From an uncultured Micrococcaceae bacterium (lineage in GTDB: Bacteria; Actinomycetota; Actinomycetes; Actinomycetales; Micrococcaceae): 64,000 nt of DNA. The DNA lies in the NCBI GenBank assembly GCA_947502645.1, contig CANNAD010000003.1, positions 304,622 to 368,621 on the forward strand. Direction: 5' to 3'. Within the stretch, counting starts at the first letter, position 1, and every line of letters starts with the position of its first letter. A program made the position numbers and the translations under genes. This document shows positions 24,923 to 27,152 of this stretch, one piece after another. Under the pieces are notes generated by a model, which worked only from the letters and a program-made list of their open reading frames with translations, did not search any database and was not told the origin of the DNA.

Positions 24923-25474
24923 ATGATCACGAAGCAGAACATTGACGACATTCTCAACAGTGGCGGGCACGTGGTCGGGCCCGATGGTCACAAGATCGGC
25001 TCCATCGGCCAGTTTTACGTCGACGATGATTCCGGGCGCCCTACCTGGGTCACCACAAAAACAGGCCTCTTCGGCACCTCGGCATCCTTCGTCCCCCTGA
25101 CGGACGCGAGAGTGGAGGGGAACGACGTTCACGTCCCCTACGACAAGGACACCGTCAAGGACGCACCCCGCACCGAAGCTGATTCACAGCTCTCACCCGA
25201 AGAAGAAGACCGCCTTTACGAGCACTACCGCGTGGCCGACAGCACCGGAGCGGAAACGGAGACTGGAGCTGAAACGAAGACCGGCACACATACCGACGGC
25301 ACGTATTCGGGTGTAACCACGGGCACCGATGACATGCGCGGCGAACGGACCGGAACGCATCTGAGCGACGACGACTTCGGCGAGCGCAGCAGCATGGAAC
25401 GCCAGGAAGCCCCCGACCGTACCCGCCTGCGCAAGTATGTGGTGACGGACAGGGACCGCGACGACAGGATCTGA
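24923..25474 (+). CDS. PRC-barrel domain protein
   Basis: 183-residue soluble protein. Residues 1-75 form a PRC-barrel-like domain (GHVVGPDGHKIGSIGQFYVDD, then PTWVTTKTGLFGTSASFVPL). The rest is acidic and Thr/Glu-rich with TGAETETGAETKTG repeats and a charged tail, probably disordered. PRC-barrel proteins of this type are widespread in actinobacteria and often linked to stress, but the role here is unknown. A good ribosome site (CAGGAG) precedes ATG at 24923. Confidence 0.85.
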   Translation: MITKQNIDDILNSGGHVVGPDGHKIGSIGQFYVDDDSGRPTWVTTKTGLFGTSASFVPLTDARVEGNDVHVPYDKDTVKDAPRTEADSQLSPEEEDRLYEHYRVADSTGAETETGAETKTGTHTDGTYSGVTTGTDDMRGERTGTHLSDDDFGERSSMERQEAPDRTRLRKYVVTDRDRDDRI

Positions 25475-25556
25475 TCAGTTTCTGCACTTCCGCCGTGCGT
25501 TTGTGTAGTGGGCTTATCATGGGAAAAACACCCACCACACTTTTTCGGAGGCTTCG

Positions 25557-27152
25557 ATTACAAACTCAGTCGCGCAGCAGGACGCATACTTCGGAGCTCC
25601 GGAGCCGGGCCCCGAGCCCGAAGTTTTCGAAACAGTTTCCAGCGCGGCGGACCAGAGGTTCCGAAGTCGCAGCGACCTGACTCTGGTCAAGGGCCGCTTC
25701 GCCCTGATCAACCGTGACCTCACGCCGAACGACGCCATGGTTGAGGATCTGCTGTTCATCCGCAATGTCCTTGACGAAGCCGGAATCTCCTACCTGCTGG
25801 TCCGTGGTAACGACACCAGACCGGTCATCGCCGTCGACTTCCAGAATGCGGACGTGTTTCGTGACGCGCTGATGACCGCGTGTGCCAACGAACCTTTTTA
25901 TGTCCGAACAGTGGACACGAAGGGGCGTTCGACCCGCCTCGTGGCGGACGGGATCTTCTCCCGTAGCGGCATGGCACGGATTTTCCGGCTGTTCCGGCCG
26001 AGGATCGAGCCTTTCGGGGAATTGGTCTATGGCCCGTCCGCCGGAGTTCAGGTGGAGTTCTGGGAACGCGCTGGCGAATTGATGATCCTGCCCATGGAGA
26101 ATTCGCTGACACGGCGTTCCATCGACGCCGCGGAGATGGTGCGCGGAACCGTTGAAAGGCACGGGCTTACCTGGCCCACGATCGACAACATGTTTGCTGA
26201 CCACGCAACGGACATCGACTTCGATATCGACATGGTGTTTTCCTGGGTGGACGGGAGCTCCCCTGAATACCGGGCTGCCCGTGCGGCACGGATGAAGGAC
26301 GTGGTCGTTGGGGAGGGCGATGACCACGAAGCCCGATTCCGCCAGATCAATGAGCTCAAGTACGCGTTGCGATCCGTGTACATGTTTGCGCCGTGGGTCC
26401 GGCACATCTTCATTGCCACCGACTCGCCACGGCCCGAGTGGCTCGCCGACCACCATGCTGTCACGCTGGTGCCCTCGGAAGAGCACTTCGCTGATCCGTC
26501 GGTGCTGCCCACACATAACTCCCAGGCCGTCGAAAGCCAGTTGCAGCACATCAGGGGATTGTCCGAGCACTTCCTGTACTCCAACGACGACATGTTCTTT
26601 GGCCGTCCGGTGAGCCCTGGCATGTTTTTCTCCCCGGGCGGCATCACCAAGTTCATTCAGGCCGAAACGCGCATCGGCCTCGGAGACAATGACGCGGAGC
26701 GCAGCGGGTTCGAGAACGCGGCGCGGGTCAACCGCCGTCTGCTGCACGAACGGTTCGGCAGAATCACGACGCGTCACCTGGAGCATTGCGCTGCACCGCT
26801 GCGCAAGAGCGTGCTGTTGGAAATGGAAAAGGAATTTGCCGAGGAATTCGCTGCCACAGCAGCTTCCCGATTCCGTGCCAAGGACAATATCTCGGTCACG
26901 AACTCGCTATACCACTACTACGCGCTGCTCACCGGCAGGGCCGTCACCCAGGAATCAGCAAAAGTGACGTACGTGGACACCACCACCTACTCGGGTCTCA
27001 AGAATCTGCGCAAGCTCCTAGCCAAACGGCACCGCGACTGCTTCTGCCTCAATGACGGCAGTTTCCCGGAGGTCCCTGCCGAGGAACGGGCCCACTTGGT
27101 TACGGACTTCCTGGAGAAGTATTTCCCGTTCAAGGCACCGTGGGAAAAGTAG
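25557..27152 (+). CDS. Stealth-family sugar-phosphate transferase, apparent ATT start
   Basis: Stealth proteins transfer hexose-1-phosphates to make capsule-like or cell-wall phosphoglycans. Motifs visible are DIDMVFSWVDGSSPEY, FRQINELKYALRSVY, HIFIATDSPRPEWL and HFLYSNDDMFFGRPV, the family's conserved regions. The first in-frame ATG is at 25737, but the family-typical LVKGRFALINRDLTP lies upstream of it. Reading back, the only start-like codon after the stop at 25506 is ATT at 25557, five bases after a perfect GGAGG. I therefore place the start there (531 residues). ATT starts are rare but known, as in infC. Its stop is one base from the end of the convergent phosphatase gene. Confidence 0.8.
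   Translation: MTNSVAQQDAYFGAPEPGPEPEVFETVSSAADQRFRSRSDLTLVKGRFALINRDLTPNDAMVEDLLFIRNVLDEAGISYLLVRGNDTRPVIAVDFQNADVFRDALMTACANEPFYVRTVDTKGRSTRLVADGIFSRSGMARIFRLFRPRIEPFGELVYGPSAGVQVEFWERAGELMILPMENSLTRRSIDAAEMVRGTVERHGLTWPTIDNMFADHATDIDFDIDMVFSWVDGSSPEYRAARAARMKDVVVGEGDDHEARFRQINELKYALRSVYMFAPWVRHIFIATDSPRPEWLADHHAVTLVPSEEHFADPSVLPTHNSQAVESQLQHIRGLSEHFLYSNDDMFFGRPVSPGMFFSPGGITKFIQAETRIGLGDNDAERSGFENAARVNRRLLHERFGRITTRHLEHCAAPLRKSVLLEMEKEFAEEFAATAASRFRAKDNISVTNSLYHYYALLTGRAVTQESAKVTYVDTTTYSGLKNLRKLLAKRHRDCFCLNDGSFPEVPAEERAHLVTDFLEKYFPFKAPWEK

Follow-up and report, generated by a model that had tools for sequence, protein, structure and literature searches.

A conserved ATT/ATC start codon that probably limits expression of a Stealth (CpsY-type) gene in Micrococcaceae

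Background

Apart from infC, only a small number of bacterial genes are known in which an AUN or GUC start codon has been retained, and the published cases considered here point to control by start-codon quality. infC itself starts with AUU in E. coli and with ATC in Streptomyces (PMC5472188). IF3 represses start codons outside the set AUG, GUG and UUG. This has been stated for E. coli and demonstrated in Streptomyces for sigR, which starts with GTC: extra IF3 lowers SigR, and IF3 fidelity mutants raise it (PMC5472188). The start of sigR had been misannotated in available genomes (PMC5472188). In S. aureus, cvfC1 (AUU) and ccpN (AUA) are expressed at about 10 % of the AUG level in poor medium; ccpN reaches up to 30 % of AUG in rich medium, and cvfC1 showed no medium-dependent effect (PMC13009471).

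How readily such codons are used and acquired has been addressed in two further studies. Among leadered start codons selected in M. smegmatis behind a Shine-Dalgarno sequence (SD), ATG made up 20.5 %, GTG 22.2 %, TTG 28.7 %, ATT 9.8 % and ATC 0.2 % (PMC4633059), which supports the view that actinobacterial ribosomes are able to initiate at AUU when an SD is present. Across 36 genome groups, one switch from AUG to AUU was reconstructed among 61,358 ancestral starts and one from GUG to AUU among 5,080 (PMC5622118), which makes a family-wide AUU start unusual.

Here we describe such a start in a gene for a Stealth (CpsY-type) sugar-phosphate transferase. Like infC, the gene has an AUU/AUC start behind an SD that is widely kept, and infC is present in the same genome; unlike infC, it encodes no initiation factor, so no autoregulatory loop is expected. 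It shares with sigR the actinobacterial setting, a conserved non-canonical start and an extensive ribosome binding site, while sigR uses GTC rather than ATT/ATC and encodes a sigma factor for which the balance with RsrA is important (PMC5472188). The dependence of sigR on IF3 is experimental, whereas that of the Stealth gene is deduced from its start codon. With ccpN and cvfC1 it shares a conserved non-canonical start and a strong SD, although these are Firmicutes genes for a transcriptional repressor and a 61-aa protein and not for a 531-aa enzyme (PMC13009471). E. coli pcnB is likewise limited by an inefficient AUU start (as described in PMC9410913), with another function in another phylum, and homology is not expected. 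Conserved weak starts are thus of a known kind (sigR, pcnB, ccpN, infC), of which Stealth is a further case, here with an AUY (ATT or ATC) codon in an enzyme gene and common to 130 distinct sequences. For Micrococcaceae, and for Stealth genes, our search of the open-access literature found no earlier report of an ATT or ATC start.

Results and discussion

The Stealth reading frame opens at an ATT codon

We refer to the whole stretch of 64,000 nucleotides that was analysed as the window. The features around the start of its Stealth gene are as follows:

25506..25508, + strand: in-frame stop TAG, upstream limit of the frame
25515..25520, + strand: TATCAT, −10-like box of a putative promoter, 42 nt before the start codon
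25547..25551, + strand: Shine-Dalgarno GGAGG, spacing 5 (CTTCG) to ATT
25557..25559, + strand: ATT start codon, conserved as ATT/ATC, boundary of coding-type divergence
25557..27152, + strand: Stealth (CpsY-type) sugar-phosphate transferase gene, 531 aa, stop included
25641..25736, + strand: codons 29-60, predicted ordered in the structure model and lost with an ATG start at 25737
25737..25739, + strand: first in-frame ATG, M61 (codon 61), rejected as start

Direct reading of the sequence places the ATT in frame with the Stealth ORF ending at 27152 and finds no ATG, GTG or TTG in any of the 16 codons between the TAG and the ATT. The first-pass annotation had called this ATT the only usable codon after the stop, with a perfect GGAGG five bases before it and the first in-frame ATG at 25737; our reading agrees on all three.

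ATT and ATC are kept across the family

We searched 245 genomes for the family and found a match in 139. Start regions were taken from 116 orthologues and near paralogues of at least 60 % identity, relatives of 42 % identity or less being left out of the start reading, and from 80 named loci, 196 in all. A start was called in 191 of these 196, the exceptions being L103, L104, L112, L115 and L105, the last cut by a contig end. Removal of 24 sequences identical over the first 360 nt left 167 distinct sequences. For 20 loci (18 tabulated plus L085 and L086) we assigned the start manually or with a special rule; other ambiguous loci were given the codon aligned with query residue 1, and L075 was counted as ATG.

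The 167 distinct sequences start with ATT (95), ATC (35), GTG (16), ATG (14), TTG (6) or CTG (1). AUY starts thus account for 130 and canonical starts or CTG for 37, compared with 154 AUY starts out of 191 before the duplicates were removed. The ATT/ATC rows carry ten genus labels (g1, g6, g8, g10, g19, g25, g28, g29, g31 and g32) with Arthrobacter, Pseudarthrobacter and Paenarthrobacter among their named members, and 56 of the 130 come from named records. Whether orthologues carry ATG or GTG at this codon had been raised in the first-pass annotation, and the answer is divided: the ten genus groups have ATT or ATC, and one subclade within the family has ATG or GTG, as do outgroups.

This breadth bears directly on the possibility that the ATT is a sequencing or assembly error, either a misread ATG or a frameshift that hides a junction to the ATG at 25519. 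We found nothing in favour of this idea, which the recurrence of ATT/ATC in 130 distinct sequences, 56 of them from named records, refutes and renders scarcely credible. Independent genomes keep the codon, and the concern that a corrected read might restore ATG can be set aside.

Of the 130 AUY starts, 129 follow an SD of at least 4 nt at an aligned spacing of 4-7, and in 117 the spacing is 5 or 6. Among the 14 ATG orthologues, 8 have an SD that reaches this length, and SDs are shorter in this group (Mann-Whitney p 0.0017, from few independent lineages). This difference hints at compensation, whereby the total initiation strength would be held down whichever start codon is used.

A second type of Stealth copy (L106-L116), 60-64 % identical, occurs in one genus group, either alone or beside an AUY copy. 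Where its start can be called it is TTG, GTG or CTG behind AGGAG-like words. Every TTG or CTG row belongs to this type, as do two GTG rows (L111 and L113).

Coding sequence begins at the ATT/ATC codon

Between close relatives, codons 2-60 diverge by 0.095, 0.068 and 0.354 at codon positions 1, 2 and 3 (620 close, non-independent pairs). Over the upstream interval from −60 to −22 the corresponding values for the same 620 close, non-independent pairs are 0.60, 0.60 and 0.58, without codon periodicity. Divergence of the coding type therefore begins at the ATT/ATC codon. None of the 130 AUY genes has an in-frame stop in the 99 codons after the AUY codon, and 47 of them have one within 20 codons upstream.

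It is conceivable that translation starts further downstream, at the ATG at 25737 or at a closer CTG, and that the preceding stretch is untranslated, 25737 being the first ATG in the frame. The evolution of codons 2-60 as coding DNA makes this reading highly unlikely, and the GTG/ATG orthologues begin near codon 1 and not near codon 61. The residues at stake also seem to be structured. The structure model, built from 37 sequences and modest overall (mean pLDDT 65.8, pTM 0.51), reaches pLDDT 81-91 in the ten-residue blocks between residues 31 and 70. It predicts two helices, at 29-36 and 57-75, with strands at 41-44 and 47-51 between them. According to this model, a start at M61 would lose the first helix and both strands and would cut into the second helix, and so into ordered structure. 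R47, L50 and T56, within the ordered residues 29-60, are invariant, in keeping with the earlier claim that the sequence before 25737 is conserved in the family. Divergence, predicted structure and orthologue starts together rule out a start at the ATG at 25737.

The start could instead lie upstream, at the ATG of a TATCATG box or another codon, leaving the ATT as an internal isoleucine. In some relatives (for example L053, L056 and L057) the ATG of TATCATG is indeed in frame and open, and 17 of the 130 AUY genes have a canonical codon with its own SD-like word within 24 codons upstream. An upstream in-frame stop is in view in 125 of the 130. Between it and the AUY codon, 68 of these 125 have at least one ATG, GTG or TTG; because such codons exist, another start could by sequence alone be envisaged in those genes. 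Against this, the other 57 of the 125 have no canonical codon in the interval (the stop lies within 10 codons in 32 of the 125), and in the window the TATCATG box has its ATG in another frame, while the stretch from the in-frame stop to the ATT holds no canonical codon. The upstream sequence lacks codon periodicity, and an ordinary internal isoleucine is encoded by ATC in 84 % of cases. An upstream start is refuted by sequence for the window and for the 57 AUY genes, and we consider it very improbable in general.

The start site at the ATT is thus strongly supported by the sequence comparisons. The codon named in the first-pass annotation holds on three counts: codons 2-60 diverge as coding sequence, residues 29-60 are predicted to be ordered, and ATT or ATC is kept in relatives.

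A box of the form TA[TC][CTA][AC]T lies within 70 nt upstream of the start in 85 of the 130 AUY-start genes, compared with 10 % in single-base shuffles. The TATCAT box of the window may belong to an extended −10 promoter, from which a leader of about 30 nt would result. Read by eye, the box in relatives often appears as TATCATGCA(A/G)GTA.

Codon choice and history of the weak start

ATT makes up 73 % of the AUY starts (95 of 130) and 14.5 % of the internal isoleucine codons of the same genes (310 of 2141; Fisher's test of ATT versus ATC, 4e-46). Isoleucine at codons 2-25 is encoded by ATT 44 times, ATC 79 times and ATA 5 times, that is, by ATT in 34 % of 128 cases, and the start codons still differ from this set (2e-9); both statistics ignore shared ancestry. 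Codon 2 is ACA in 79 of 122 genes with threonine there. Genes favour A/T-rich codons close to their start in any case, and context therefore explains part of the excess of ATT.

We followed the start codon on a quick protein tree of 126 rows, rooted on six rows of family f19. By parsimony, this tree requires a minimum of 12 exchanges between ATT and ATC among 102 AUY rows, and 4 changes between AUY and canonical starts. GTG or ATG is found in one whole subclade and in L069, a member of a mostly AUY genus, which implies that the low ceiling is dispensable. That ATT and ATC replaced each other repeatedly and seldom gave way to ATG may reflect selection against AUG.

Outgroup starts were read by eye for L251, L259-L270 and L287-L289, with L290-L302 left out. 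In the f19 outgroup the start is canonical in 10 of 12 loci by this reading, L262 and L264 having no start in the stretch read. The readable outgroup starts, from ten f19 loci and three loci of the same class, are ATG, GTG or TTG. The weak AUY start was therefore probably acquired early in the Stealth lineage of the family, close to its base, and one subclade probably moved later from AUY to GTG/ATG. The branch that sets the deepest AUY pair at the base has a support of 85 and is not starred. Natural AUG and GUG counterparts in the same family would make selection on start-codon strength measurable.

Rarity of such starts in this genome

To place the Stealth start among the other genes, we surveyed a 368.6-kb part of contig C3, equal to 14 % of the genome, in which 277 ORFs were scored as coding. 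Only in the Stealth gene (1 of 277) does an SD-preceded AT[TCA] codon stand ahead of the first canonical codon with a genuine coding signal in the stretch between; the signal amounts to 19.9 nats over 60 codons, the next best ORF reaching 1.9. The count is a floor, because the rule looks only before the first canonical codon and misses infC in the same stretch. infC of this genome starts with ATT at contig C3 position 23499, and in the 28 loci, out of 29, that were read by eye it starts with ATT (15) or ATC (13).

A looser survey, in which any SD-preceded codon was allowed to compete, proposed, for 259 ORFs, 39 'starts' at AT[TCA] and 34 at CTG. Many of these lay deep within genes, and the survey was discarded as non-discriminating. 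Gene callers restricted to ATG, GTG and TTG will misplace the Stealth N-terminus.

A low ceiling on synthesis, probably sensitive to IF3

Taken as a whole, the best explanation is a Stealth gene started at AUU under a low, IF3-sensitive ceiling, with a weak start that probably dates from near the base of the gene lineage in the family; we give it a probability of roughly 0.8. Initiator fMet-tRNA would pair with the AUU imperfectly, mismatched at the third base, and the well-spaced SD would hold this complex at the codon. An AUU or AUC start would then set a low ceiling on synthesis of the CpsY-type transferase, and the Stealth level would be sensitive to IF3 activity, because IF3 represses initiation outside AUG, GUG and UUG. 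The weak start would have been kept through ten genus groups, with repeated exchange between ATT and ATC, and one subclade would have gone over to GTG/ATG. ATT probably outnumbers ATC because actinobacteria initiate more strongly at ATT, as the M. smegmatis selection would suggest (PMC4633059). The conservation of a weak start suggests that the protein is deliberately made at a low level. The tie to regulation that the first-pass annotation drew from infC would agree with these precedents.

Alternatively the weak start may provide a constant low trickle, an expression ceiling as for pcnB, with no switching by IF3 in nature. This reading shares the start site with the IF3-sensitive one, differs from it in the IF3 step and fits all the sequence evidence equally well. 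The tendency of ATG orthologues to have weaker SDs is in its favour, as is the behaviour of cvfC1, whose AUU gives about a tenth of the AUG output in poor medium without responding to the medium (PMC13009471). Against it stand the IF3 dependence of sigR in Streptomyces and the rise of ccpN with its AUA start in rich medium, which lead us to expect some sensitivity at Stealth as well. We place the constant trickle a little short of even odds. On the analysis as a whole, we conclude that the Stealth start acts as a conserved expression limiter that is probably IF3-sensitive.

A more far-reaching idea, which we regard as speculative and rather unlikely, is that IF3 serves as a growth-linked dial for a cell-surface polymer of Micrococcaceae. 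Stealth would be sensed by IF3 beside infC, the output of sugar-phosphate polymer would follow the ratio of IF3 to free 30S subunits, and AUY would have been held by selection against AUG in most of the family.

Gene product and neighbourhood

The four Pfam Stealth regions occur in order and all above cut-off between residues 222 and 531:

26220..26297, + strand: Stealth_CR1, residues 222-247
26334..26648, + strand: Stealth_CR2, residues 260-364
26784..26924, + strand: Stealth_CR3, residues 410-456
27012..27149, + strand: Stealth_CR4, residues 486-531

The same residues match the CpsY 201-520 construct of the solved phosphotransferase domain (8J2N chain A) with an E value of 7.7e-150, and CpsY of Mycobacterium tuberculosis (8J2N) belongs to the same protein family as the product of the window. 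NCBIfam gave no match for the Stealth protein. Three same-class homologues in family f22 start with ATG when read by eye; in two of these, the codon immediately before the ATG is TTG.

Upstream, a PRC-barrel gene in the same orientation ends at 25474, and a metallophosphoesterase gene lies downstream, convergent with the Stealth gene. Pfam scans of six neighbouring ORFs found no polysaccharide genes, and the Stealth gene looks like a single gene. Stealth enzymes are reported to make capsular or surface polymers by sugar-phosphate transfer (PMC10668966 and PMC5974469). The weak start may plausibly serve to keep such a polymer-building enzyme at a low dose tied to growth.

Stealth genes in records of other taxa

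Three loci carry this type of gene under the name of another taxon. L251, from genome G378 of another family of the order, encodes a 69 % identical Stealth with ATC behind GCGGAGGAAGCC and has an in-frame ATG upstream of the ATC; it was included in the tree and kept outside the 167. It may represent horizontal transfer or a misassigned genome. L129 (WNZI01000035.1), titled Vibrio cholerae strain 35D, holds an Arthrobacter-type Stealth, 78 % identical and with an ATT start, and is probably assembly contamination. L181 (JABBNV010000033.1), a MAG titled Acidobacteria bacterium, has the same Stealth gene with an ATT start. Its row duplicates that of L061 (G029), a genome that the genome search puts in the family of the window, so the Acidobacteria title seems wrong.
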